A stretch of DNA of 64,000 bases from an uncultured Litoreibacter sp. (GTDB lineage: Bacteria > Pseudomonadota > Alphaproteobacteria > Rhodobacterales > Rhodobacteraceae). Made by a program: the position numbers and the translations under genes. The stretch lies in the NCBI RefSeq assembly GCF_947501785.1, contig NZ_CANMXB010000001.1, positions 2,794,501-2,858,500 of the forward strand, written 5' to 3'. Positions 49,344 through 64,000 of the stretch are shown here, piece by piece. Under the pieces are notes generated by a model, which did no database searches, was not told the DNA's origin, and saw nothing but the letters and a program-made list of their open reading frames with translations. The stretch's first letter is position 1, and each line of letters starts with the position of its first letter.

Positions 49344-49420
49344 GGCCCCGTGGCTCAACTGGATAGAGCAGCCCCCTCCTAAGGGGCAGGTTGCAGGTTC
49401 GAATCCTGCCGGGGTCACCA
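49344..49420 (+). tRNA. tRNA-Arg (anticodon CCT)
   Basis: 77 bases with normal arms: acceptor GGCCCCG/CGGGGTC, anticodon stem GCCCC/GGGGC, loop CTCCTAA giving CCT at 49378-49380, T arm with GGTTCGAATCC, and an encoded CCA. Its 3' end is the left edge of the accessory element. Confidence 0.96.
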
Positions 49421-49540: not shown

Positions 49541-49726
49541 GCCGATCCGCCGGGCAAGGGATTTTGGAGTCCCAATAAATGGAAAAATCCCGGCTCGGCG
49601 GCAACCGAAACCGGGATCAAATCTAAAGCAAAAGCGTCCAGCTTTCTCTGTGAGGTTACCTTAAACACCGCCTCGGAAGCAACCATCATTCAAAGCAACA
49701 CGTTGCAGTGGGGTGGTGCATCATGA
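49478..49726 (+). CDS. Doubtful small ORF before the RepC-like gene
   Basis: 82 codons from an ATG that lies inside the repeat cluster, ending in an ATGA overlap with the RepC-like start. The product is polar and unlike any family I know. The overlap favours it; the position over repeats and the lack of a ribosome site speak against it. Confidence 0.25.
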   Translation: MQDFAASVREHVKNIGTKPVQADPPGKGFWSPNKWKNPGSAATETGIKSKAKASSFLCEVTLNTASEATIIQSNTLQWGGAS

Positions 49727-50811
49727 GTGTACGGCTGACTCACAGCGGCTTGCCCGCCGATATCGCACCTTTCCAATTGAAACAGCTTCTCAAACGGGCC
49801 AGGGTCTCGCTTGGTCTCTCCAAAGGCGCAGTGGATTACCTGACGTTTGCTATTGATAACTGCCAGCGGTCAGATTTCCTCAACGGCAGGATTTGCGCGA
49901 TCTGGCATTCTCTGGAGCGGCTTACTCAGATCTTTGGGTTGTCGAAGCGACAGATTAGCCGGATCGAGGCTGAGCTTGTTAGTGCGGGTTTGATCCGCCG
50001 CACCTACCCTGAGCGCAAGAGCCGATCTGGCGAGCGAATTGATGGTGTCATCAAACGCGCGGCGGGTATCAACCTCGCCCCACTGATCGAACAGGCGGGG
50101 TATGTTCGTTCGCTGGTCAGTCGCCGGATGCAGTCCGACGAAGACCACAAACGCCTGCGTGAGCAAATTCAAGGCCTGTTCCGACAAATCAGAGAGCTGG
50201 GCAACGCTAATGCTGACGAGGCCGCGACCACCATCCTGCCCCGTCGTCGGCCAACAGAACTCACCGACATTACCAAAATGCAAGAGGTTGCCGCAGCGCT
50301 TGAGGCTGTGCTTTCCGATTTTTCTTCGGATTGCAGTCAGCCAGAGATGGCCGTCGGGTCAGACGAAACTGTCCGACTCAATACGAACAAAGAAAAGAAA
50401 ACCAAAACTCGTATGGCTGAGAGACCGATTGACGAGCGCCGCTTGAACACCAGCCCAACTCACGCACGACTGCTGGCCGGACCACAGTTAGCCGAGTATA
50501 TTGATCTGTATGCCTGCGGTGGTCCGCCCGACTGGCAAGCGATCACAAGGGCTGCGCATGATCGAGCTTACGAGCTGGGTGTCTCTCGGCGATTGTGGCG
50601 AGCGAGGTGCACGCAGATTGGAGAAATGCGGACTGCACTTTGCTTGATCGTGGCGGATCGAAATTCACGAAGGACCGACGCGTTTGGCGTAGAAAACGCA
50701 GCGGCAGCTTTCGCTGGCATGACGCAAAAAGAAAATGGGCGGCTAGCCGTTCTGGACAGGTTGATCGGAGAGCTGACAAGCGCGTTGATCCGATCAGGCG
50801 GCAATCCATGA
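49723..50811 (+). CDS. RepC-like replication initiator (winged-helix)
   Basis: 362 residues. The N-terminal ~150 residues match the helix-turn-helix head of plasmid RepC proteins: SKGAVDYLTFAIDNCQRSDF, IWHSLERLTQIFGLSKRQ, ISRIEAELVSAGLIRRT, then GINLAPLIEQAGY (GxxLxPL signature). A variable linker and a helical C-terminal part follow (about 230-360). In repABC plasmids RepC starts replication at its own gene; here RepA and RepB are absent. Start is ATG 49723. Alternative: a regulator of the element built on the same fold. Confidence 0.72.
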   Translation: MSVRLTHSGLPADIAPFQLKQLLKRARVSLGLSKGAVDYLTFAIDNCQRSDFLNGRICAIWHSLERLTQIFGLSKRQISRIEAELVSAGLIRRTYPERKSRSGERIDGVIKRAAGINLAPLIEQAGYVRSLVSRRMQSDEDHKRLREQIQGLFRQIRELGNANADEAATTILPRRRPTELTDITKMQEVAAALEAVLSDFSSDCSQPEMAVGSDETVRLNTNKEKKTKTRMAERPIDERRLNTSPTHARLLAGPQLAEYIDLYACGGPPDWQAITRAAHDRAYELGVSRRLWRARCTQIGEMRTALCLIVADRNSRRTDAFGVENAAAAFAGMTQKENGRLAVLDRLIGELTSALIRSGGNP

Positions 50812-50842
50812 ATTGCCTTCGTCTGCCCCAAAAGAAGAATGA

Positions 50843-50880
50843 GCAAGGTTACGCGTGTGGCTACGCCAAACGCACCTTGC
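50843..50880. other. Candidate origin of transfer (oriT)
   Basis: GCAAGGT (50843-50849) and ACCTTGC (50874-50880) form a 7-bp inverted repeat, with an inner GCGT/ACGC pair (50853-50856, 50870-50873). It lies in the 135-base gap between the RepC-like stop and the mobC ATG, where oriT sites of mobC-mobA elements usually are. The nick site cannot be placed. Confidence 0.4.
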
Positions 50881-50946
50881 GAGGGAATGGACAGGCCCTT
50901 TCCCCTCGACCCCAAACCCACGCGCAGAGCGGGACAGGTGGTTGGC

Positions 50947-51303
50947 ATGAGCAAGAGTAAGTGGGAGCCGCATGCGGTTCGTAAGCTGGTCCTGCGGGTA
51001 CGCTGCTCGGAAGAAGAACGTGCGACGTGGTTGAGGAAAGCTCAGGCTCAGGAGCGGTCTCTCTCCGACTACGCTCGTCATGTCCTCTCTGCTGAACCGA
51101 TGCAGCGGCGGGCGCGGCCACCGGCGGTCGATACAATGTTGCTGGCAGCGGTCGGGCGTGCGGGCAACAATCTCAACCAAATCGCACGCGCCATGCACAC
51201 GGACCGCAAGGCTGGGCGACGTATCGATTTGATCGCCGTCTACACTTTGTTGATGGCATTGGACCGCGAGCTTGCTGAGATTGTCGCGGAGCATTCCCGA
51301 TGA
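50947..51303 (+). CDS. mobC: Mobilization relaxosome protein MobC
   Basis: 118 residues from ATG 50947 (a longer frame opens at 50839 but crosses the candidate oriT). A ribbon-helix-helix-like N-terminal half (KLVLRVRCSEEERATW) and the MobC signature GRAGNNLNQIARAMHTD (about 75-90). MobC helps the relaxase melt oriT. It overlaps mobA by ATGA (51300). Confidence 0.85.
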   Translation: MSKSKWEPHAVRKLVLRVRCSEEERATWLRKAQAQERSLSDYARHVLSAEPMQRRARPPAVDTMLLAAVGRAGNNLNQIARAMHTDRKAGRRIDLIAVYTLLMALDRELAEIVAEHSR

Positions 51304-53000
51304 TGGTTCGCTTTTTCACGCATGGGGACGGTTCAGGACGGGTAGCTGTCGAGTACCTCCTGGCCAAGGAGGTGGCCGCCTATACGGAAGACCGGAAGCG
51401 CATCCATGGCAAGACCGTCCTACGAGATGTGGCCCCAGAAGTACTGTCCGGCGATCCCGATCTGACATGTCACCTGATCGACAGCAACACCCGCAAATGG
51501 CGCTACACATCAGGCGTCGTGGCGTTCCATGCCGAGGACGATCTCTCAGAGGTGGAGCAAACCAATGTAATGCGGGATTTTGAGAAAGCCGCGTTTGCCG
51601 GGCTCGAAGCAGACCAAACGAACATCCTCTGGGTTCGTCACCAGCACATGGGCAATGTTGAATTGCACTTTCTGATCCCGCGCGTCGAACTCTATGCCGG
51701 TCGGTCGTTCAATCCCGCACCCCCAGGGTCGGAACGCTTCTTCAACGCCTTTCGCGATTATTGGAATGCCCGCGAAGGCTGGGTTAGTCCTGAAGAGCAG
51801 GAGCGAAAACGCATGGTCAAACCTGCTTTCGATCTTGGCGACCGACAGAGCATCAAAGAAACCATCCAGACCCTGATGCTTCAGAAGATCGAGGCTGGCG
51901 AAGTCCGAAACCACGCAGACGTTCGCGCTGTTCTGAGCGAACTGGATGGTCTCGAATTCAAACCGTTGACCGAGAAGCAGCTTGAGAAGCGCCGCAAGAC
52001 CGATGCCGAAGAAGCGAAAGGCGGCAAGCCCCGCCGCCGTGACACTCGGATCACGATGCGGGTTGCCGGAACCTCGGACAGCCGAAACACTTTCAGACTA
52101 GAGGATCGTATTTTCCATGAAACCTGGACCGCAGATGAATACCTTGCTGCAAAGCCTGCAAGCGAAGGTGGAGACGCAAAGCCACGCCACCGAAGAGCAA
52201 ACCCAGCAGATGTTGAACGACTTCGAGCGGCGTTTGTCACAAGCGTTGAACGCCGCGCTGCGAAAAATCGATCACGATATGCGCACCCTCGAAAGGCTGA
52301 GCAGCTCACTCAACGACCGGACGATCCACGAGATCGAGGCGCAGGCCAGCAAGATTCGGGACGCGACAGCAGCTTTGGAAGAGAGTCGGAAGGAATGGCG
52401 CACGGTGACCTGGAAGACGATGCTGCCAACCTATCTGGCCGGGGTCTTTCTGACCTCCTGGGTGCTCTTGATGGCCGTGCAGCTGACCTTTCCAGAGCAA
52501 CCGCCAACAATCGAAACACCGGGGCTGGCAACCTTCGGTTTGGAAGGGACGCGCGTGACCCGTGGCCTTGGCGGCTTGGGCCAAGTGGTCAACCTTCCGC
52601 GCGGCGTATCCGTAACCAATTGTCCGGTGCCCAATCTCGGCGGTGGCGAAGTCTGCGTCGAAACGGCCAAAACGAGGTAAACCATGTCACACCATCAATT
52701 GACGCCCTTCGAAACGGCATTGTTGCGCGCTGTCGAGGATTTGAACGCAACCTTCGAAGCTGGGTTGAAGAGCGCGGGTGCTTCGCCGGACGAGTTCGGG
52801 AGTTTACGGCGCGAGTTCGAACGGTTCACAGAGGGCTTGGAGAGGCGTTTGAGCGACTTGGAAGACAGACTGCAAGGGTTGTAGGTAGAACTAAGTCATT
52901 TTTAAATAGACAAAATTTACCGTCGAACGAACCCAGAAACGAGTCGGCTCAGCCAAAGAAAAGTACGCAACCACTTTTGCCTTCAGGTCCTAAGCCCTAA
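51300..53000 (+). CDS. mobA: Relaxase/mobilization nuclease MobA
   Basis: 566 residues. The N-terminal relaxase domain (about 1-240) starts MVRFFTHGDGSGRVAVEYLL and has the His cluster RHQHMGNVELHF (His114, His116, Glu121, His123), a PF03432-type metal motif close to the HEN variant of the MOB-P/ColE1 group. The nucleophile Tyr is not certain (Tyr19 in VEYLL is a candidate). The C-terminal half, rich in Arg, Gly and Asp, overlaps two other genes in another frame. It nicks oriT and leads the strand in transfer; transport needs a type IV system from elsewhere. Confidence 0.88.
   Translation: MMVRFFTHGDGSGRVAVEYLLAKEVAAYTEDRKRIHGKTVLRDVAPEVLSGDPDLTCHLIDSNTRKWRYTSGVVAFHAEDDLSEVEQTNVMRDFEKAAFAGLEADQTNILWVRHQHMGNVELHFLIPRVELYAGRSFNPAPPGSERFFNAFRDYWNAREGWVSPEEQERKRMVKPAFDLGDRQSIKETIQTLMLQKIEAGEVRNHADVRAVLSELDGLEFKPLTEKQLEKRRKTDAEEAKGGKPRRRDTRITMRVAGTSDSRNTFRLEDRIFHETWTADEYLAAKPASEGGDAKPRHRRANPADVERLRAAFVTSVERRAAKNRSRYAHPRKAEQLTQRPDDPRDRGAGQQDSGRDSSFGRESEGMAHGDLEDDAANLSGRGLSDLLGALDGRAADLSRATANNRNTGAGNLRFGRDARDPWPWRLGPSGQPSARRIRNQLSGAQSRRWRSLRRNGQNEVNHVTPSIDALRNGIVARCRGFERNLRSWVEERGCFAGRVREFTARVRTVHRGLGEAFERLGRQTARVVGRTKSFLNRQNLPSNEPRNESAQPKKSTQPLLPSGPKP
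52135..52680 (+). CDS. MobB/MbeB-like membrane protein nested in mobA
   Basis: 181 residues from ATG 52135 (an ATG six codons earlier, 52117, is possible). It lies wholly inside mobA in frame +1. The start MNTLLQSLQAKVETQ and the Gln/Glu-rich coiled coil (about 7-95 of the longer form) look like MbeB/MobB of ColE1-type plasmids. One membrane helix follows (about 103-125, LPTYLAGVFLTSWVLLMAV), then a 60-residue tail with two Cys. MbeB-type proteins anchor or aid the relaxosome. That this reading frame is used is inferred from the protein-like composition and from the ColE1 order. Confidence 0.72.
   Translation: MNTLLQSLQAKVETQSHATEEQTQQMLNDFERRLSQALNAALRKIDHDMRTLERLSSSLNDRTIHEIEAQASKIRDATAALEESRKEWRTVTWKTMLPTYLAGVFLTSWVLLMAVQLTFPEQPPTIETPGLATFGLEGTRVTRGLGGLGQVVNLPRGVSVTNCPVPNLGGGEVCVETAKTR
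52684..52884 (+). CDS. MobD/MbeD-like small protein nested in mobA
   Basis: 66 residues, in the same frame as the mobB-like gene and 3 bases after it; still inside mobA. It is all-helical: TPFETALLRAVEDL at the front, then a charged C-terminal coiled coil (LERRLSDLEDRLQGL). This pattern is that of MbeD/MobD, which accompanies MbeB in ColE1-type mobilization. The role in transfer is inferred. Confidence 0.68.
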   Translation: MSHHQLTPFETALLRAVEDLNATFEAGLKSAGASPDEFGSLRREFERFTEGLERRLSDLEDRLQGL

Positions 53001-53262: not shown

Positions 53263-54414
53263 ATGGAAGATACCTCCGCGCATCGCGTTGTCGAAGAAGT
53301 GCTGGAAGATGATGGGATCCCTTCCGGAGTAGAGAAAGAACTGGAAGACGACGGTAGCATCGGTATCGTACGTCCTTTCGACCCAGAAAAAATCAAGATC
53401 GCACGTGAGACAAAGACGGTTAGCCTCTTGGATACTCGTATAACTCACGGAGAAATTGATCTTTTCCCCGACTTTCAGCGTAATTCAGGACTGTGGACAT
53501 CGCGTCAAAAAAGCAGACTCATCGAGTCTTTGCTGCTGCGGATTCCACTTCCAGCATTCTATGTTGCTTGTGACCAGGACGAAAACTGGGCCGTTGTAGA
53601 TGGTCTTCAGCGGCTATCCACCATCCACACGTTTATCCACGGCCAATTCCAACTGACGGGCCTAGAGTACCTAGTCCAATTTGATAAATCAAAATTTGAT
53701 GACCTTCCGCGAAGTATGCAGAGAAGGATCGAGGAAACTGAGCTGGTCTTGAATGTTATCCAACCAGGAACACCCGAAGAAGTAATGTTCAACATTTTCA
53801 GCAGAATCAATACTGGAGGGATGACGCTGAATGGCCAAGAGATCAGACATGCGCTAAATAAGGGGCCTGCAAGAGCCTACTTGATGAACCTTGCAAACTC
53901 CAACGAGTTTCTTGCAGCAACAGAAAGCAGCATTTCGACAAAAAGAATGTTGGACCGTGAATGCGTTTTGCGCTTCCTAGCATTTTGGCTCCGGCATTGG
54001 GAACAGTATCAGAACAACGATTTGGATGGGTTTCTAAATACTACGATGAAAGCCCTCAACCGCATGGAAAATGCTGACTTGGGTGCTGCGTCAGATGCGT
54101 TCAGGCGATCCATGGTCTTAGCAAAGAACGTGTTTGGTGATGATGCCTTTCGGAAGCGGTATAGCATTGAAGATCCTCGTAAACCGATAAGTAAGCCACT
54201 ATTTGAGATTTGGAGCGTCTGCTTGGCAAAGCTGACCCAAGAACAAGGGGAGGTACTCCTCTCTCGCCGCAATGCAGTGCAAACTGCATTTTCCGAATTG
54301 CTTCGCGATGATCGTGAGTTTGAAGCTGCTATAACGAACTCAACAAATGTCCCTGCGCGAGTACATAAACGCTTTCAAGCCATCGAAGATCTTATTGCGC
54401 GAGTGCTGGAATGA
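53263..54414 (+). CDS. DUF262 (ParB/GmrSD-N-like) protein
   Basis: 383 residues from the ATG after AAGGAG. The DUF262 domain covers about 40-250: LFPDFQRNSGLW and VVDGLQRLSTIHTF carry the FQR and DGLQR motifs that in GmrS-type proteins bind and split nucleotides, and FNIFSRINTGGMTLNGQEIRHAL. The HNH (DUF1524) nuclease tail of full GmrSD proteins is absent; an alpha-helical C-terminal part follows. It is the first gene of a three-gene operon (ATGA overlap with the next). The 262 bases before it (53001-53262) hold no gene. Confidence 0.85.
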   Translation: MEDTSAHRVVEEVLEDDGIPSGVEKELEDDGSIGIVRPFDPEKIKIARETKTVSLLDTRITHGEIDLFPDFQRNSGLWTSRQKSRLIESLLLRIPLPAFYVACDQDENWAVVDGLQRLSTIHTFIHGQFQLTGLEYLVQFDKSKFDDLPRSMQRRIEETELVLNVIQPGTPEEVMFNIFSRINTGGMTLNGQEIRHALNKGPARAYLMNLANSNEFLAATESSISTKRMLDRECVLRFLAFWLRHWEQYQNNDLDGFLNTTMKALNRMENADLGAASDAFRRSMVLAKNVFGDDAFRKRYSIEDPRKPISKPLFEIWSVCLAKLTQEQGEVLLSRRNAVQTAFSELLRDDREFEAAITNSTNVPARVHKRFQAIEDLIARVLE

Positions 54415-55631
54415 TGACTTCTTTATCGTCGATGCATCTTAAGAACTTCAAGTGCTTTCGAGATGCAGAAATTGACATATCAGGGCTTACTATTTTGACC
54501 GGCGTGAATGGTATGGGCAAGAGCAGCCTCATTCAGGCTTTACTACTTTTGCGTCAGTCGTTTGGACTTCAAAATCGAATGAACCGGCGCTTAAAGCTAA
54601 ACGGCGAACTGATCGAACTTGGTACTGGCTCAGACGTCTTTTTTGATTTGGCTGACGACGACTTTTTGACCGTTGGGTATGAGTTTGGAGAATCTGGAGG
54701 CCTCAGTTTTCGGTCAGAGTATCGCTATGAATATGATCGAAGTAGTCAAACGCTCAAACCAGCATCGACAAAAGAAGCATTTAACAATCGCGTTGACGAA
54801 TATTGGGACGATTCCAGTAACTCTTGGATCGAAATTGACCGTCAGAACGATGGGCAAAAAAGAAGCTTTCGACCACCACCCATCTATTCCACGTCTGCCT
54901 TCCAGTATTTGTCGGCAGAAAGGCTGGGGCCAAGGAAGATGCTTGCAGCCTCTGAAGAGCACTCGCAGGCAAACCAGATTGGGTCACAAGGTGAATATGT
55001 TCTTGGGCTACTTTCTGAGGGAAGGGTTTCGTCGCTAAAAGAAGATGATCCACGCCTACATAGTGATTCAAGTTCTGTTTCGCTAAAGAGCCAAGTCGAG
55101 GCTTGGATGCATGAAATCAGCCCCGGAACTAGGTTAGAAATCAACAAATACAGCGACATAGATGCCTTCACTTCAAGATATTCGTTTGAGCGAAAGGGGG
55201 ATGTGCCCTCAAAGCCGTTTCGAGCCACCAATGTTGGCTTTGGAATATCATATGTTCTGCCAGTGATCGTGTCCCTGCTAAGTTCTAGACGTGATGGAAT
55301 TACCATCATCGAGAATCCAGAAGCGCATTTGCATCCTAGAGGTCAGACAAGACTAGGACTTTTGGCGGCACTGACGTCTCGTGCCGGAGTTCAAGTTATT
55401 ATCGAGACACATAGCGACCATTTTCTTGATGGTGTTCGATTGGCGGTGAAGGAGAACCTTTGCGAGCCAGATGACATTGCCATACATTTCTTTACCCGGT
55501 TTGGGCCCGAGGCCGCAGTCATCAGTCCTGATGTACTGGAAGATGGTAGGCTATCCGAGTGGCCGGAAGGGTTTTTCGACCAGAGAGACGACAATCTTGC
55601 CAGATTACTTTCCCCTGTAAAGGCTTCATAA
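54411..55631 (+). CDS. DUF3696-type AAA/SMC-like ATPase
   Basis: 406 residues. Walker A GVNGMGKSS (residues 31-39), Walker B with IIENPEAHLHP, and a His-loop IETHSDHFLDG; the DUF3696 ending is WPEGFFDQRDDNLARLL. The N-terminal LKNFKCFRDAEIDISGLTILTG is typical for ABC/OLD-like ATPases. Such ATPases are frequent sensors in anti-phage systems. It overlaps the DUF262 gene by ATGA, and the third gene starts 2 bases after its stop. Confidence 0.88.
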   Translation: MMTSLSSMHLKNFKCFRDAEIDISGLTILTGVNGMGKSSLIQALLLLRQSFGLQNRMNRRLKLNGELIELGTGSDVFFDLADDDFLTVGYEFGESGGLSFRSEYRYEYDRSSQTLKPASTKEAFNNRVDEYWDDSSNSWIEIDRQNDGQKRSFRPPPIYSTSAFQYLSAERLGPRKMLAASEEHSQANQIGSQGEYVLGLLSEGRVSSLKEDDPRLHSDSSSVSLKSQVEAWMHEISPGTRLEINKYSDIDAFTSRYSFERKGDVPSKPFRATNVGFGISYVLPVIVSLLSSRRDGITIIENPEAHLHPRGQTRLGLLAALTSRAGVQVIIETHSDHFLDGVRLAVKENLCEPDDIAIHFFTRFGPEAAVISPDVLEDGRLSEWPEGFFDQRDDNLARLLSPVKAS

Positions 55632-55633
55632 AG

Positions 55634-56557
55634 TTGCGAGAGTTGGCGTTCAACGATGCGTGTGGAGAGAAGCCGTTCGCGACCGCTGAAAACGCTTGCA
55701 GTTCTCTGTCGGTCATCAGTCAAGGTATTGCTGAACTCGTAAGTGCAGGCGTTGCTAGAAAAGTGCTGCGATTGGCAAAACCAGTGAATGAAGTTTCATT
55801 GTCAGATGGGCTAAGCCTTTTCGATGTCATGCTAACTCTGACCAGCCGCCCTCTTACCAAAGATCAAGGCATATTTCTGCAGAGCATTGCTCAGAAAGTA
55901 CCGCTGGAAGATGATCTAGACGATGATAGTTTCGAAAGGGTCGCCACTTGGTCGCTCTGCGACTTTCCTGACTGTCTTGCATTATTGTTATGTACAGCAT
56001 CAGACAGGATAGCGGTGTCAGCTTCGGACGACACCGTTTGGCACAAGCCCTTCATTGAAGTGAGTTATACGAAAGATGGTGTAACCGACGTCACGGTCGG
56101 CCGGATAGGAAACATCTTTTCTCACGACATCGAGGAGTTGAAGCAAAGCATTCTGCATGATGGTTTAGGTGAGAAAACACCAAACGAAATTTGGGAAACA
56201 AAAAATCAGGTTTTTCCCAACCTTAGGTTCGTTCCCTCAGTTGAGCAAAACCTTAAGGCTCTTGGCCTTGTGCAATTTCAGCAGGCAGTGCGAAAATTGA
56301 TCCAGTTGCAAACCTCGGCGGAAAATTGGTTGGAAAGGCCCGTTTACACCATAGATGTACGACCTGAATCTGAGGCTACGATGAATAAGTTTGGGAATTT
56401 GAGAAAATTTCGCGATGGGTCAGGAAACATCCATGTTTATGAGCTTCATTCAACGGTTGCCGATGGTTTTCGTGCTCATTTTAGAGAAGTTACAGAACAG
56501 AACGTTCTCGAAATCGGTTATATCGGCCCACACCTGAAAGTCGCCAAAAAGAATTAA
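55634..56557 (+). CDS. Unknown third protein of the DUF262-ATPase operon
   Basis: 307 residues from a TTG (55634; TAAAGG upstream). I do not recognise the family. The N-terminal ~110 residues are helical; from 120 on it has mixed strands (FIEVSYTKDGVTDVTVGRIG). The C-terminal 60 residues (KFGNLRKFRDGSGNIHVYELHSTVADGF... ending in GPHLKVAKKN) form a small beta-rich part vaguely like RelE/HigB-type folds, but without clear catalytic residues. Tight spacing makes it a partner, possibly the effector, of the two upstream genes. Confidence 0.7.
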   Translation: MRELAFNDACGEKPFATAENACSSLSVISQGIAELVSAGVARKVLRLAKPVNEVSLSDGLSLFDVMLTLTSRPLTKDQGIFLQSIAQKVPLEDDLDDDSFERVATWSLCDFPDCLALLLCTASDRIAVSASDDTVWHKPFIEVSYTKDGVTDVTVGRIGNIFSHDIEELKQSILHDGLGEKTPNEIWETKNQVFPNLRFVPSVEQNLKALGLVQFQQAVRKLIQLQTSAENWLERPVYTIDVRPESEATMNKFGNLRKFRDGSGNIHVYELHSTVADGFRAHFREVTEQNVLEIGYIGPHLKVAKKN

Positions 56558-56590: not shown

Positions 56591-56818
56591 TTACTTTCTC
56601 ATGATCTCTGGAAACCGCTTTGAATCGATCCATTGCTTTCCATCTTTTGGCGCACCCCAAGGGTTGCCAAATGCTTTTTCCGCAGGTGGGTCGTCCAAGT
56701 GCAGGTCGAGCGAATTCACCGCTCGTCGGGCACGTTTGTGGGACGCTTTCTTGAACAGCTTATCGCTGTCGTTCATGGTCATCCCGCAAATAGAGGTCTT
56801 CCGGTAGGATCGGGACAT
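56591..56818 (-). CDS. Small basic protein of phage/plasmid type
   Basis: 75 residues beginning MSRSYRKT, a start shared by a family of small phage and plasmid proteins, with a basic KKASHKRARRAVN helix and an acidic-Pro tail. AAGGAG lies 7 bases before the ATG, inside the end of the phosphoesterase gene, so they are co-translated. Function unknown. Confidence 0.72.
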   Translation of the reverse strand: MSRSYRKTSICGMTMNDSDKLFKKASHKRARRAVNSLDLHLDDPPAEKAFGNPWGAPKDGKQWIDSKRFPEIMRK

Positions 56819-56819
56819 C

Positions 56820-57386
56820 TCATATCTCCTTGGCGTTATGCTCGACGTCTTGCCAGTGCTTGTTCACAGGCAGAGTCTTGGCTCGCCGCGCTATGTCCTC
56901 GAAACGCACGGGCATGAAGTCCCAGACATCTACACCGGAGTTTACGCTGTTGCGCGACCCTTTCCAGTTGTTGTGGACGTGGCCGAATATCTGGAGCGCA
57001 TCACGACGGGCGTGGTTCCATGTGATCATCGGATAGTGGCAGAGCGTGTGTGCTTGCCGCTGAGGTCCATCCCGGACCTCCGCCAGATGTGAGACGCTGG
57101 TCCAAGGCAGTGCCTGCGTCGGCTCCAGGTCATGGTTGCCGACAATCAGGTGCTTTTCGACACCAGGCAGCTTTCTGAACAGCTTGGTCAGCCACTCATT
57201 GTCTTTGGCTTTTGGCCCATGAGCAAAATCTCCAATGATCCACAGCGCATCCTTTGGCCCAACCATGGCCCAGAGGTTCTGCATCAGAACCGCGTCCATG
57301 TGATTTGCCGACCGGAATGGACGGTTGCAGAACTTGATGACGTTCTCATGCCCGAAATGCGGGTCTGCGGTGTACCAGTTGGTCAT
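56820..57386 (-). CDS. Calcineurin-like metallophosphoesterase
   Basis: 188 residues. All metal motifs are present: TADPHFGHENVI (D-x-H), IGDFAHG (GD), VGNHD (GNH), HYPM and GHVHNNW. This short type is typical of phages and plasmids and may act on nucleic acid ends or nucleotides; the substrate is unknown. It is followed after one base by the small basic protein gene. Confidence 0.88.
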   Translation of the reverse strand: MTNWYTADPHFGHENVIKFCNRPFRSANHMDAVLMQNLWAMVGPKDALWIIGDFAHGPKAKDNEWLTKLFRKLPGVEKHLIVGNHDLEPTQALPWTSVSHLAEVRDGPQRQAHTLCHYPMITWNHARRDALQIFGHVHNNWKGSRNSVNSGVDVWDFMPVRFEDIARRAKTLPVNKHWQDVEHNAKEI

Positions 57387-57568: not shown

Positions 57569-58426
57569 TCACAGGTCCATGTCCGAGGCTTCGACTTCCT
57601 CGCCGGTCAGGGCTTCGACGATCTGTCGATCAAGCTCTGCCATGTGCTGACGGCCGAGTTCATAATCGACCAGTGAGAAGCCGATCAGGGTACTGCCGGG
57701 CTCTCCACGATAGGTGACCGTGAAGGTGGCTAGACAGCCTGTTTTGATCTCATCGTCGCGCGGATAGGCAAAGCGGTAGGACACATCATTGCGATAATGG
57801 CGGGAGTTGCCGCATAGCTCGTAAGTCGTCCGGATTGTGCGCTCTCGCCCCAATTCGGTGCGGGTTTCCTCATGGATCAGTTCCCTAATCGCATCCAGGT
57901 TTTCAATGAAGCCTTCGGTGCTCCAGGCATAGGTCAGCGTCATGGTGCGCCCATCGATCTCGACACGGGACGGAGGACCATACAGCCCCTCGACCTGCGC
58001 CTTCAGTTCCAGCGGTTCGGGTAGTTCGTCGCTTGGCTGACGCATAGAGCGGTGGATCGCCATCGGTCGTTGTTCCATCACATCGGACGATAGCGTGGCT
58101 GTCACCTGATCTTGGTCCGCACCAGCGAGCCTGCCATTTACGCCAACATCGCCAATGCGCGTGAATTGTTGATAGGTGAACTCAAACACGTTGCCGTCTG
58201 GGGATTGTACCCGCAGAACTTCGCTCTCGCTTGTTGGAGCAGCATCGCTGCGTTCTGCGTAGACGGCCAGAACATCGCCTAGGGGATCGCCGGGTTGCAG
58301 TCCGAGGATTTCGTATGGGTAGGGACGAGCCTCTGGTGCAGGGAGTGGCGTGAGCTCATCCTCCGCGAAAGCCGGGAGCGCCATAGAGGCCGCAGCCAAA
58401 CCAAATGTCAGCGATGTACGGATCAT
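57569..58426 (-). CDS. Exported protein of unknown function
   Basis: 285 residues. Signal peptide with cleavage near AFAED (residue 22). The rest has alternating strands, e.g. ILGLQPGDPLGDVLAVYAE and FEFTYQQFTRIG, and two Cys (LCGNSRHYRN, TGCLATF) that could form a disulfide. I do not recognise a family. Its ATG overlaps the ParA-like stop, so it is made with that protein. The 182 bases after it have no gene. Confidence 0.75.
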   Translation of the reverse strand: MIRTSLTFGLAAASMALPAFAEDELTPLPAPEARPYPYEILGLQPGDPLGDVLAVYAERSDAAPTSESEVLRVQSPDGNVFEFTYQQFTRIGDVGVNGRLAGADQDQVTATLSSDVMEQRPMAIHRSMRQPSDELPEPLELKAQVEGLYGPPSRVEIDGRTMTLTYAWSTEGFIENLDAIRELIHEETRTELGRERTIRTTYELCGNSRHYRNDVSYRFAYPRDDEIKTGCLATFTVTYRGEPGSTLIGFSLVDYELGRQHMAELDRQIVEALTGEEVEASDMDL

Positions 58427-59190
58427 GCGACGGCCTTTCTTTTGAATGCATAGGGGGACTGGTCGCCGGTGAAGGGCTCCAAACGCTGACCGTCTAGCGC
58501 CCATTCGACCTCATGGGTCAGGCGCTGCACAGCATTCCAGGCCGCAAGGGCATCGCGATACCGGGCGAAACCGGGCCTGTCGGGCTTGCAGGCCAGTGTT
58601 GAGACGAAAAGTGCGATATCGCCATTGAGGATCTGATCGGAGATTGCTTCGGCCCAGGGTAGCTCCGAGTGGAACACCGCGTGATAGCTGAAGGCTGTTC
58701 GGGTTTCGACTACTTCACCGGCACCGTTTCTACATCCAGTGATCAGGCACATCAGGTCTTCGGGCGTTCCGAGATATTGGTCGATGCCTTCAACAATGCA
58801 CTTGGCCTCAAACGGGCTGATAGCAGGGGCAATGATAAGATCAGCCAACCCAAGCGCCGCAAGTTGCGGTTCATCCAGCCTGGCCTTTGTATCGATCAGA
58901 AGAAGATCAATGCCACGGGCGTTAGCCGCTGCCGCACTGTCTTCGACTTCATCGCGTGTTCTGCATTCGATCAGCTCCAGTTGCGGTGGGCGGACTTTGC
59001 AGGCCGCCATTTGCGCTATCCAGTTCTGCAATGTTGAGGGTTGGCTACCTTTGGGGTTTGTCCCCGCCTGATCGGTGCAATCCATCACCGCGACCCGCTT
59101 GCCTTGAGCGAGAAGGCCAGACGCAAGCGCCATCGTTGCAATGGTGCGGCCAGAGCCGCCCTTGTTGGCAAACATTGCAATGCTCTTCAT
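58423..59190 (-). CDS. ParA/MinD-like P-loop ATPase with altered Walker A
   Basis: 255 residues. Deviant Walker motif KGGSGRT: the signature Lys10 is kept but the P-loop Lys is Arg15. Walker B-like IDLLLIDTKARLDEP and a LIIAPAISPFEAK strand follow, as in VirC1/ParA. The C-terminal part is helical. ParA-type proteins handle plasmid or relaxosome positioning, but the Arg makes ATP hydrolysis uncertain. Start ATG 59190 follows GAGG. It is divergent from the XRE gene. Confidence 0.82.
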   Translation of the reverse strand: MKSIAMFANKGGSGRTIATMALASGLLAQGKRVAVMDCTDQAGTNPKGSQPSTLQNWIAQMAACKVRPPQLELIECRTRDEVEDSAAAANARGIDLLLIDTKARLDEPQLAALGLADLIIAPAISPFEAKCIVEGIDQYLGTPEDLMCLITGCRNGAGEVVETRTAFSYHAVFHSELPWAEAISDQILNGDIALFVSTLACKPDRPGFARYRDALAAWNAVQRLTHEVEWALDGQRLEPFTGDQSPYAFKRKAVA

Positions 59191-59211
59191 CGGAACCTCA
59201 ATTCGCAAAAT

Positions 59212-59242
59212 ACATAATATAGTTGATAACATTAAAGTATGT
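59212..59242. promoter_or_regulatory. Operator-like inverted repeat between parA-like and XRE genes
   Basis: ACATA (59212-59216) and TATGT (59238-59242) within an A/T-rich 60-base divergent region, flanked by AAAT and ATTT. Suited to the divergent XRE protein. Confidence 0.35.
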
Positions 59243-59507: not shown

Positions 59508-62393
59508 CTAGGTGAATTTAAGATCCCCTAGTCCTTCATCGAAGGTCTCAACAAAACTGGCAATTCGCGAAATTACCCGTTCGGCTGCCTGCTTACGTTG
59601 CAGAATACCAGGCGTCTCCAGCATTACGGCGACAATCTCGTCCGTTAATGGTGACTTGCCGGAAAACTGATAGCTCTCCAGTAGGGATGCAAAGCCCTCA
59701 GGTTTCAGGTTCTCCTCAGTGCAAATCTTGGAGAATTCAGAAGCGCGTTTTTTGCTCCAGAAGTCCTCGAATATGTCGTGGGTCTCTTCAGGACTGCTCA
59801 CCATAGGAAGGTAGGCTGTGATGAACTCCTCAATGAGCTCGCGCTTGCTTCGAAGCTTGGGTTCGGAGCCCAACAAATCGAGAATCGTCTTGGTTTTGTT
59901 TGCCGCATCTAGCGGATCTTCCGCTTCTCGCTGTTCCGCTATCACTGAGGCAAGCAATGCCAGGATGTAGGCGACGTTGATGTTGTCGCGTCGAATGAGC
60001 TCAAGTTCGAAATCGACTTCGTCTAATATTGAGGCACGTGTGTCGTCATCACGGTCTGATTTTAGACGGTCATGGATATCTAGATATTTGCTTTTGAAAT
60101 CTTCAAAACGTTGGGCGTCGATGGACAGATCATCATCACTAAACTCGGCGAAGCTGGTCAGCACGTTTCGAATGCGGATCAGCTCTCGGAACGCCCGTAC
60201 AAAAGCCATGAGGTCCTCTTCAGATACCAGCTTGTCGACGGCGGATGGTGTTGCAGCGATCTTTAGCAGCTCCATGACCCCTTCGTTAAAGCGGGTTACG
60301 TAGTCTTGATACGGCTCAATTAGGATGGTCTCGTCGGCGTCTTTGTTCGAGAAAAGTTTGATTGCCTCGTCAACTTTGGTTTTGAGGTTGCGGAAGCAGA
60401 CGATATTTCCTTGTGATTTTTTCTGGCCAAGAATGCGGTTTGTACGTGAGAATGCCTGTATAAGCCCATGATATCGAAGGTTCTTGTCAACATATAGCGT
60501 GTTACAGGTTTTTGCGTCGAAGCCGGTGAGGAACATATTGACTACCAGCAAGATGTCGATGCCTTGGCCATCGATGAAGTCCTTACGATCCCGCCACTTC
60601 ATTCGTTTCGCGAGCGCCTTGTAATAGACGTAGAAGGCTTTGCCATCTTTGACGCTGTTATTCGTACCGAACATTGCGTTGTAGTCGCCGACATACCCAG
60701 CCAGCTTGTCGCGGCTATGCTTGGTGGTCTCGCTGATCGGCCCGCCAGTAACGTCTGGCTCCCCGATCAGTCCGTTGGCATCTTCGTCCTCTTCATTTGC
60801 AGCGAAGGTAAAGATGGTCGCTACTTTCAGGTCGTGCTTCCCTTCGGCCTTCTTTCGCTGAAAAGCATCATAAGTCTTGGTCAAAGCATCAACTGATCCT
60901 GCACACATAATTGCCGAGAAATCCCGGTTGTGAGTTTTGCGGTGGTGGTTTTCGATCACCCAATCAACGACACCTTCAATCCGTCTCTCGTCCTCAAAAA
61001 ACTCTTTCAGGTCGAGGCCTGTGACCTCTTCGTCACTGATCAGAGAGCCGTCTTTTCGGTGCAGTTTTCCCCAATACTCAACAGCAAACCGAAGCACGTT
61101 CTCGTCACGGATGGCATCAGTGATAACGTAGCGGTGCAAGCACTCGTCGAAAAGGACAGCGGTCGTGCGCTTTCCAATGGCGTTTTCTTTGAGGATCGGA
61201 GTACCGGTAAAGCCAAACATCTGGGCCCTTGAGAAGAAGGCCACGATGTTCTTGTGGGTATCGCCGAACTGGCTACGGTGGCATTCGTCGAAGACGAACA
61301 CGATGCGCTCATCTTTCAGTGCTTCCATCGTCGTAGCGTGTTTGTCACGTGTGATTGCCGTGTTCAGTTTCTGTATGGTGGTGACGACTAACTTGGTATC
61401 CGGGTCGGCAAGTTGGTCGACGAGAGCACTCGTGTTGTCCGTGCCGTCGACTGAACCTGGAGAGAAGAAGTTGAACTCTTTCGTTGTTTGATAATCAAGG
61501 TCGGCTCGGTCTACGACAAACACCACTTTCGCGACCTTTGGATTTTCGACAATAACCTGACTGGCCTTGAAGCTGGTCAGGGTCTTGCCCGAGCCCGTGG
61601 TGTGCCAGATGTAGCCGTTCTTGCGGCCCTTCATCACGCGATCCAGGATGCATTCAACTGCATAGTACTGGTAGGGGCGAAGCACCATCAATGCCTTATC
61701 ACTTTCGTGCAATACCACGTACTTTGCGACCATCTTTGAAACGAAACATTTCTCCAGGAAGGCGTCGGCAAAGGCTTCCAGTTTTGTGATCGGATTGTTG
61801 GCCTTATCCGCCCAGAAGAACGTTTGTTTGAAATCTTGGTGCCGGTTGTTGGCATAGTATTTCGTGTTCACGCCGTTCGAGATGACGAAGAGCTGGACAT
61901 ACTGGAACAGCGCATTGCCTGCACCAAAGCTGTGGCGGTGATAGCGGTTGATCTGGTTGAAGGCCTCTTTCAACTCGATCCCGCGCCGCTTCAGCTCAAT
62001 TTGGATGAGTGGAAGCCCGTTCACCAGCAGCGTCACGTCATAGCGGGTCTTGTATTGGCCTTCTTGCGTGATCTGGTGAGTGACCTGATAGCGATTTCGG
62101 CACCATTCGCGTCCATTGAAGAACTGCACATAGGCCGTCGTGCCGTCGTCGCGCTGCAAAGTCATGCGGTCGCGCAGCGTCTTGGCTTTCTCAAAGGTCG
62201 AACCTTTGCCCAGGTAGTTGAGGATGGTGCGAAACTCCCCGTCCGAGAATTGCAGCCCGTTATGCGCCTCAAGTTGCGCGCGCAGGTTAGCCTCCAGCGC
62301 CGCATTGTCTGGGATGGCGACCGAGGTCCAGCCCAGATCGTTCAGACGCTGGATTAAGGCATTTTCAAGCTGGGCTTCGGACTGAGTATTCAT
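59508..62393 (-). CDS. hsdR: Type I restriction enzyme, R subunit
   Basis: 961 residues. N-terminal nuclease with RYDVTLLVNGLPLIQIELK (PD-(D/E)xK), two RecA-like helicase domains with TGSGKT and DECHRSQFGD, SAT-like FTGTPI, and a helical C-terminal part. It cuts unmethylated DNA after ATP-driven translocation. It is 9 bases behind hsdS on the same strand, giving order hsdM-hsdS-hsdR. Confidence 0.95.
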   Translation of the reverse strand: MNTQSEAQLENALIQRLNDLGWTSVAIPDNAALEANLRAQLEAHNGLQFSDGEFRTILNYLGKGSTFEKAKTLRDRMTLQRDDGTTAYVQFFNGREWCRNRYQVTHQITQEGQYKTRYDVTLLVNGLPLIQIELKRRGIELKEAFNQINRYHRHSFGAGNALFQYVQLFVISNGVNTKYYANNRHQDFKQTFFWADKANNPITKLEAFADAFLEKCFVSKMVAKYVVLHESDKALMVLRPYQYYAVECILDRVMKGRKNGYIWHTTGSGKTLTSFKASQVIVENPKVAKVVFVVDRADLDYQTTKEFNFFSPGSVDGTDNTSALVDQLADPDTKLVVTTIQKLNTAITRDKHATTMEALKDERIVFVFDECHRSQFGDTHKNIVAFFSRAQMFGFTGTPILKENAIGKRTTAVLFDECLHRYVITDAIRDENVLRFAVEYWGKLHRKDGSLISDEEVTGLDLKEFFEDERRIEGVVDWVIENHHRKTHNRDFSAIMCAGSVDALTKTYDAFQRKKAEGKHDLKVATIFTFAANEEDEDANGLIGEPDVTGGPISETTKHSRDKLAGYVGDYNAMFGTNNSVKDGKAFYVYYKALAKRMKWRDRKDFIDGQGIDILLVVNMFLTGFDAKTCNTLYVDKNLRYHGLIQAFSRTNRILGQKKSQGNIVCFRNLKTKVDEAIKLFSNKDADETILIEPYQDYVTRFNEGVMELLKIAATPSAVDKLVSEEDLMAFVRAFRELIRIRNVLTSFAEFSDDDLSIDAQRFEDFKSKYLDIHDRLKSDRDDDTRASILDEVDFELELIRRDNINVAYILALLASVIAEQREAEDPLDAANKTKTILDLLGSEPKLRSKRELIEEFITAYLPMVSSPEETHDIFEDFWSKKRASEFSKICTEENLKPEGFASLLESYQFSGKSPLTDEIVAVMLETPGILQRKQAAERVISRIASFVETFDEGLGDLKFT

Positions 62394-62402
62394 AGGTAAA
62401 CC

Positions 62403-63578
62403 TTAGACAAACAGCTTTTGTAGAAGGCCCTTTTTGAAGGCCTCCATCTCGGAAATCTTCTGTGACAGAGTGTTGATTTTGGCGTCGGCCGCCAAGAGTG
62501 TGGCAGCAATCTTGCGCTGTTCGTCGGGGTGGGGAACCATAACCTTGATTTCGCCAAAGAGCGGAAATTTCAGGTTCCAAGTATCCTTGGTCAATCCCTG
62601 AGAGTACTTTCTGAACTGGTTCACGAGGGGCGGAAACTTGAAGTAGTATGCCCAGAACTTTGGTATCTGCCCGCAACTGGGCGTAACCACCGTATATGCT
62701 GGGCTCACAATGCCATCATATTCTGAAAGACCATTCGCCCCTTGCCACATACGCATGGAATTGTAGGCAATGTCACCGGGGCGTACGCATTTATAGTTGG
62801 AGCGATCAATACTCGCCTCTTGAGCGCGTGCAACATCCGATGCTCTGCGAACACCATTGTGCATCGTGACGGACAAAAGTTCTGCCGTAGGATTCCCTCG
62901 CTCAGAACGTTCGCTGAACATTTTGCCAAGTCGCCGCTCCTCCCAATCCGGGAAGGCATTGCCGTCTTCGCGGGTAAAGCGCAGCTCACGCGAAAACAGC
63001 TGCTGCATCAGCCAACGCTTATAGTCCTCCAGCGCAATTTTCTTGTCGATCAGAAGGGTGATCTTGCATGAGGTAGCGTCGAATACTGCTGCGATCTTTT
63101 CCTGTTCGGGTTGATCCGGCAATGCGAGCGGGATCTTGGCAAAGTCCTGATAATAAAGGCGCAAGCGGTCGTTGGTCAGCCCGTGTGAGTAGGCCCACAG
63201 TTGGTGCAGCATGTGTTGGTTTTGAAACCAGTAGTCGAAGAACTTCGAGGATACTCCTGGCTCGGGTGACAGCACCACATAGGCAGGACTAACCATGCAT
63301 TCCTCAGCCGCGAGGCCGGCTGCGCCCTGCCACATCCGCATCATGTTGTAGACCAGATCGCCAGGTTGGGCGCGCAGATTACTTTCGTCTGCTGCGTCGG
63401 CACCCATATGGCGATCAAGGCTATCTCGACGGACAAGCCCACGGTCCTGGGTCACAGAGTAGATCGGCAGTCCCGCTTCGCCCTTGGTTTTACTGTTGCG
63501 AAAGGCATCACCAGCTCGTGCAGGCTTCCATGGGCTTTTGAACTCTGGAAAACGCAGTTCCGGCACAAAGTTGTTCAT
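62403..63578 (-). CDS. hsdS: Type I restriction enzyme, S subunit
   Basis: 391 residues. Two target-recognition domains (about 25-180 and 210-370) each followed by a coiled-coil region; QEKIAAVFDATSCKITLLIDKKIALEDYKR is the central conserved region and EQRKIAATLLAADAKINTLSQKISEMEAFKKGLLQKLFV the distal one. It sets the DNA target. ATG 63578 overlaps the hsdM stop. The recognition site cannot be read from sequence. Confidence 0.94.
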   Translation of the reverse strand: MNNFVPELRFPEFKSPWKPARAGDAFRNSKTKGEAGLPIYSVTQDRGLVRRDSLDRHMGADAADESNLRAQPGDLVYNMMRMWQGAAGLAAEECMVSPAYVVLSPEPGVSSKFFDYWFQNQHMLHQLWAYSHGLTNDRLRLYYQDFAKIPLALPDQPEQEKIAAVFDATSCKITLLIDKKIALEDYKRWLMQQLFSRELRFTREDGNAFPDWEERRLGKMFSERSERGNPTAELLSVTMHNGVRRASDVARAQEASIDRSNYKCVRPGDIAYNSMRMWQGANGLSEYDGIVSPAYTVVTPSCGQIPKFWAYYFKFPPLVNQFRKYSQGLTKDTWNLKFPLFGEIKVMVPHPDEQRKIAATLLAADAKINTLSQKISEMEAFKKGLLQKLFV

Positions 63579-64000
63579 AGGGGTGCTTCCAGGCCAAGTT
63601 CGGCACAAAACCCACGCAGTTCCTCATCGACATCACGCATGTCCAGATTGATTTGTTCGATGCACCTCGTCACCTTCTCAAGATCGACGGGCGATTCCGG
63701 CACGAAGGTGTCGACATAACGGGGGATATTGAGGTTGAAATCGTTCTCTTCGATCTCTGCCAGCAAAGCACGGTGTGAAAACCGCTCTTCCTCCGCTCGT
63801 GTACGATACGCCTGAACAATACGTTCAACGTCGCCTTGGCCCAGCGTGTTTTGGTTTTTACCTCGTTCAAAACAAGTCGAGGCGTCCACGAAGAACACGT
63901 CTTCAGTCTCTTTGCACTTCTTCAGAACCAATATGCAGGTCGGTATGGCCGTGCCGTAGAAGATGTTCTCCGGAAGGCCGATTACCGAGTCCAACCAGTT
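63575..64000 (-). CDS. hsdM: Type I restriction enzyme, M subunit (partial, 3' end)
   Basis: The C-terminal 141 residues of HsdM; the gene begins past the window. The visible GLPENIFYGTAIPTCILVLKK is the conserved strand after motif IV, followed by the helical tail that binds HsdS. It methylates adenine in the target. Confidence 0.92.
   Translation of the reverse strand, partial: NWLDSVIGLPENIFYGTAIPTCILVLKKCKETEDVFFVDASTCFERGKNQNTLGQGDVERIVQAYRTRAEEERFSHRALLAEIEENDFNLNIPRYVDTFVPESPVDLEKVTRCIEQINLDMRDVDEELRGFCAELGLEAPL

Follow-up and report, generated by a model that had tools for sequence, protein, structure and literature searches.

A Menshen operon identified by sequence in an integrative mobilizable element, with an NsnC tail of predicted RelE/YoeB fold as its probable effector

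Menshen, an anti-phage system of three genes (NsnA-NsnB-NsnC), was reportedly described by Millman et al. in 2022; a paper by Li et al. from 2025 in Nucleic Acids Research (NAR, gkaf357) is said, by its title, to concern the domain polymorphism of Menshen and may already contain much of the NsnC picture given below. The operon analysed here lies in a 64,000-nucleotide stretch (the window) of contig NZ_CANMXB010000001.1 from an uncultured Litoreibacter sp. According to passages of a 2023 review (PMC10952713), the mechanism of Menshen was left open, loss of the DUF262 gene abolished resistance, and a TOPRIM/OLD nuclease domain was tied to a Menshen component. In an excerpt of a metagenome survey (PMC10924106), restriction-modification genes are stated to prefer the vicinity of Menshen outside defence islands. 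Another trio, ptuXYZ, was introduced in a section of Gerdes 2025 (PMC11980606) as a 'novel potential defence locus' in which a DUF262 protein lacking HNH is accompanied by a PtuA-like ATPase and a third, PIN-like/YoeB-like protein; the main text of that paper does not contain the words Menshen, NsnC or DUF3696.

Operon layout and assignment to Menshen

As judged from its sequence, the operon is a complete copy of Menshen, an already described anti-phage system. It consists of three genes on the + strand, of which nsnA and nsnB overlap at ATGA and nsnC begins with TTG 2 bases past the TAA of nsnB (aa, amino acids):
53263-54414, + strand, nsnA: DUF262 protein (GmrSD_N, ParB/Srx-like NTPase) of 383 aa, matching PADLOC NsnA and PF03235, with FQR and DGLQR motifs
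54411-55631, + strand, nsnB: OLD/ABC-type ATPase of 406 aa with C-terminal DUF3696, matching PADLOC NsnB, PF13304, PF13175 and PF12476
55634-56557, + strand, nsnC: protein of 307 aa with a TTG start, an N-terminal domain (residues 1-193) and a C-terminal domain of predicted RelE/YoeB fold (residues about 195-302)

The PADLOC Menshen models covered almost the full length of all three proteins, matching the first gene as NsnA (residues 12-382, E 5.7e-144), the second as NsnB (E 6.4e-112) and the third as NsnC (PDLC03912, residues 1-306, E 2.2e-45). In NsnA, which was matched by Pfam PF03235 (GmrSD_N/DUF262) at E 9e-21, FQR occupies residues 71-73 and DGLQR residues 113-117, and F71, Q72, R73, D113, G114, Q116 and R117 were invariant across 17 aligned NsnA proteins. 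NsnB was matched by AAA_21/AAA_15 (PF13304, PF13175) and, at its end, by DUF3696 (PF12476, E 3.3e-13); its ATPase motifs GVNGMGKSS, ENPEAHLHP and ETHSDH were conserved among 15 aligned proteins, short segments of it also aligned with PtuA models (E 4.7e-12), and the protein matched PtuA chains of solved structure (E 0.00056). At E ≤ 1, Pfam gave neither DUF1524/HNH in NsnA nor TOPRIM in NsnA, NsnB or NsnC.

Related loci were taken as the best 80 of 278 NsnB relatives from a scan in which each species was represented by one genome; because they were chosen by NsnB similarity, this sample favours close relatives. NsnA was located directly upstream of NsnB in 77 of the 80, a neighbourhood that exceeds chance, and was missing in L057, the contig of which starts just upstream, and in L050 and L058, which have more than 1.6 kb upstream. 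An open reading frame (ORF) was likewise present at the NsnC place in 77 of the 80; no downstream ORF was found in L031, L037 or L050, with 3075 bases left in L031 and approximately 240-250 in the other two. A single-sequence search recognised NsnC in 46/80 loci. The third-gene protein set (n = 85) comprised the 77 ORFs, the window NsnC and 7 homologous proteins, and was matched by NsnC model PDLC03879 in 75 cases and by another NsnC model in 70. Since an ORF stands at this place in nearly every locus and 75/85 proteins match a single NsnC model, the third gene belongs to the system. The TTG start carries a caveat, in that a database protein (P0001, 180 aa) begins at a codon within nsnC, apparently because the TTG start was overlooked in automatic gene calling, so that P0001 lacks most of the N-terminal domain.

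An initial annotation had placed the three overlapping or near-touching genes correctly, had read gene 1 as having FQR/DGLQR motifs without an HNH tail and gene 2 as an OLD/SMC-like ATPase, and had suspected Menshen, all in agreement with the results above; it had also asked whether the third protein belongs to the set, which it does. The possibility, raised there, that homologues of these genes rarely neighbour one another went the other way, since they are regular neighbours. Its statement that gene 3 matches no known family stood for Pfam (E ≤ 1) and gave way before the PADLOC NsnC match and the predicted RelE/YoeB-fold domain, and 'candidate' was too weak a word for a described system. The locus adds a further copy of an already known system; it is ordinary as a find and offers one useful mechanistic lead.

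The NsnC tail and the proposed mechanism

This lead is the C-terminal domain of NsnC, for which a BECR/RelE fold (RelE/ParE superfamily) was predicted:
56216-56539, + strand: part of nsnC encoding the RelE/YoeB-fold domain (residues 195-302), in which E245, H272, R280, G298 and H300 are conserved

In the fold comparison, rows for YoeB, RelE and YafQ stood above those for ParE, the top row being titled YoeB/ParE. Residues E245, H272, R280 and H/K300 were conserved in a recount on 54 NsnC sequences taken without choice by eye (L025 among them ends early), their equivalence to YoeB residues being drawn from strand order; four of the five best conserved NsnC positions fall within the toxin-fold domain. 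Alignment A2, from which an NsnC model was derived, contained 55 NsnC sequences chosen by eye from their tails, and its conservation is therefore partly circular. In alignment A1, seven ORF starts (L007, L008, L044, L055, L070, L078 and L080) were moved or replaced by hand. A ParE-like gyrase poison, or some other use of the RelE/ParE fold that does not involve ribonuclease (RNase) activity, is quite unlikely for this tail, as the YoeB, RelE and YafQ rows outrank the ParE rows and NsnC shows conservation of E, H, R and H/K, whereas ParE toxins are stated, in a portion of PMC11980606, to lack the typical RNase catalytic residues.

A rough motif sort of the 85 tails yielded 60 with RIHF/IGYIGxH (the window protein included), 5 with RIHF only, 4 with the Pfam YoeB toxin, 7 with YHGY and 9 others; some of the last are short frames; L057 and L066 have tails resembling the YHGY ones, and L036 and L059 resemble unrelated neighbours. 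The YHGY-type motif replaces the RelE-type end in the third genes of L032, L069, L072, L076, L079, L080 and L081, and such tails possibly represent another effector fold. Two A1 third-gene proteins match the PADLOC CARF_DUF2103 model (best E 3.7e-13).

As the searches revealed neither HNH in NsnA nor TOPRIM in NsnB, the effector is most likely NsnC. A type IV restriction-like Menshen, with a DNA nuclease of NsnA or NsnB as the effector and NsnC as a structural or targeting subunit, would accord with the DUF262 proteins GmrSD, BrxU and SspE, which act in DNA cleavage according to excerpts of the literature, and with a passage of PMC10952713 in which the DUF262 protein of Menshen is suggested to control an OLD nuclease associated with it; it is nevertheless unlikely, given the domain searches just cited, the concentration of the best conserved NsnC positions in the toxin-fold domain and the YoeB tails of 4/85 third-gene proteins.

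The reading that is probably correct is that of a complete Menshen travelling as cargo on an integrative mobilizable element, with the RelE/YoeB-fold tail of NsnC as an RNA-cutting effector. NsnA (DUF262, ParB/Srx-like, without a nuclease tail) would bind phage DNA or another infection cue together with a nucleoside triphosphate, and NsnB, an OLD-family ABC ATPase, would relay the signal and keep NsnC silent via the NsnC N-terminal domain. Infection would then free the RelE/YoeB-fold domain for cleavage of RNA, the target being most likely ribosome-bound mRNA, as it is for YoeB and RelE; translation would halt, the cell would be arrested and the phage could not spread. No antitoxin-like gene was seen beside nsnC among the listed frames, which were viewed without a family scan, and control would therefore fall to NsnA and NsnB together with the N-terminal domain of NsnC. 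With a toxin fold of RelE type assigned to NsnC, the mechanism of Menshen becomes open to a direct test.

Several results weigh against an RNA-cutting tail. Pfam returned nothing for NsnC at E ≤ 1, and hence no named RelE, YoeB, HigB or ParE family (0 families), and NCBIfam gave NsnC no match near the cut-off; none of the NCBIfam matches shown for the three operon proteins reached its cut-off. Foldseek returned no PDB match for NsnC at E ≤ 0.001 (best 0.046, with Txp40 tied at rank 2), and hhalign gave the window tail a probability of 0.1 against YoeB tails, a weak test with only 4 YoeB-tail sequences. E245 lies within residues 231-262, a stretch possibly outside the 82 aligned residues, and strand order rather than superposition underlies the residue equivalence between NsnC and YoeB. 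ParE proteins, moreover, have the same fold without RNase activity.

A further proposal, more doubtful than not and put forward tentatively, is that the commonest tail class among close Menshen relatives (60/85 in the rough sort) is an undescribed RelE-fold RNase family (E, H, R, H/K) that has no antitoxin and is silenced and released by NsnA-NsnB, while other Menshen systems swap the tail for YoeB or other domains. If so, NsnC would be an exchangeable effector slot across Menshen systems, and Menshen and ptuXYZ would become one system.

The mobile element and its setting

The operon is located inside an 18.2-kb element in tRNA-Arg(CCT), extending from window position 49374 to position 3679 of L082 (genome C1, 2843874-2862078). 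The second exact copy of the 43-bp repeat (L082 3637-3679) lies 18,162 bp from attL, and the following features were assigned:
49374-49416, + strand, attL: 43-bp repeat within the 3' portion of tRNA-Arg(CCT) (49344-49420)
49708-50811, + strand: RepC-like replication protein (PF03428, E 2.1e-17)
50839-51303, + strand: NikA/MobC-like mobilization protein (PF21983, E 3.2e-10; PF05713, E 2e-6)
51300-53000, + strand: relaxase-like protein (PF03432, E 2.5e-4, below the curated cut-off)
58423-59232, − strand: ParA/VirC1-like ATPase (PF13614, PF07015)
59508-63608, − strand: type I restriction genes HsdR (59508-62393) and HsdS (62403-63608)
L082 2528-3601, just before the second repeat: tyrosine integrase (PF00589, E 2.5e-7)

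An HsdM-like frame, judged by eye, follows HsdS beyond the window. Next to the operon are a calcineurin-like metallophosphoesterase gene (56820-57386, − strand, PF00149, E 1.1e-4) and, after it, a 75-aa frame (56591-56818, − strand). The GC content is 46.9% in the operon, 53.9% elsewhere in the element and 59.2% in window positions 1-49373. The AT-richer stretch, the mobile element and the nearby type I restriction system reported in the initial annotation were all recovered, and the last fits the preference of restriction-modification genes for the vicinity of Menshen in the excerpt of PMC10924106.

The element is an integrative mobilizable element. Among 20 further genomes of the genus, four (G002, G006, G016 and G018) have an apparently empty site, in which the tRNA and right-flank matches lie within about 40 bases, and in G017 approximately 19 kb of other DNA separates the tRNA flank from the right flank. 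Of the 61 genomes searched, one alone, the source genome, contained an NsnC of the window kind. Because of the repeats, integrase and mobilization genes, the empty sites and this single occurrence, the operon was taken as a mobile passenger. G016 has its own distant Menshen-like trio (L088 2-3172), of which the NsnC-like third protein begins MRIYLNELS, ends YLGPKLTKA and has no Pfam match. An operon that chiefly stabilises its element in an addiction-like manner, with phage defence secondary, would suit the RepC, ParA-like and relaxase-like genes around it, but this is very improbable, as no antitoxin-like gene was seen beside the operon (frames listed, without a family scan) and the set of genes corresponds to that of an anti-phage system already named.

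Comparison with described systems

GmrSD and BrxU type IV restriction differs by its DUF1524 HNH nuclease domain, not found in NsnA at E ≤ 1, and OLD, Gabija and PARIS-type systems by a TOPRIM nuclease domain, not found in the three window proteins at E ≤ 1. From the type II toxins YoeB and RelE, the NsnC tail differs in being fused behind a 193-residue domain, in having no antitoxin-like neighbour seen and in matching no sequence family. The molecule cA4 is a CRISPR signal. Cami1 (PDB 8phb/8phj) binds it according to the entry title, whereas Menshen has NsnA and NsnB instead. With Menshen, the window shares the three genes, their order and their near-touching spacing; the TOPRIM/OLD nuclease mentioned in a passage of PMC10952713 has no counterpart in the window at E ≤ 1, a difference that leaves membership intact.

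The likeness to ptuXYZ comprises a DUF262 protein without DUF1524, a PtuA-like ATPase and a two-domain third protein with a tail of predicted BECR fold (RelE/YoeB). For PtuZ, the N-terminal domain is called PIN-like in PMC11980606. The PtuZ tail is recognisably YoeB-related, whereas the window tail has no Pfam match and reached an hhalign probability of 0.1 to four YoeB-tail NsnCs (a weak test); a YoeB-related tail is, however, present in the four YoeB-tail Menshen loci. Since L038 is built like ptuXYZ and PADLOC scores its genes as NsnA, NsnB and NsnC, ptuXYZ, known here from its description alone, and Menshen look like one system by architecture, and two names are thereby joined for apparently one architecture.
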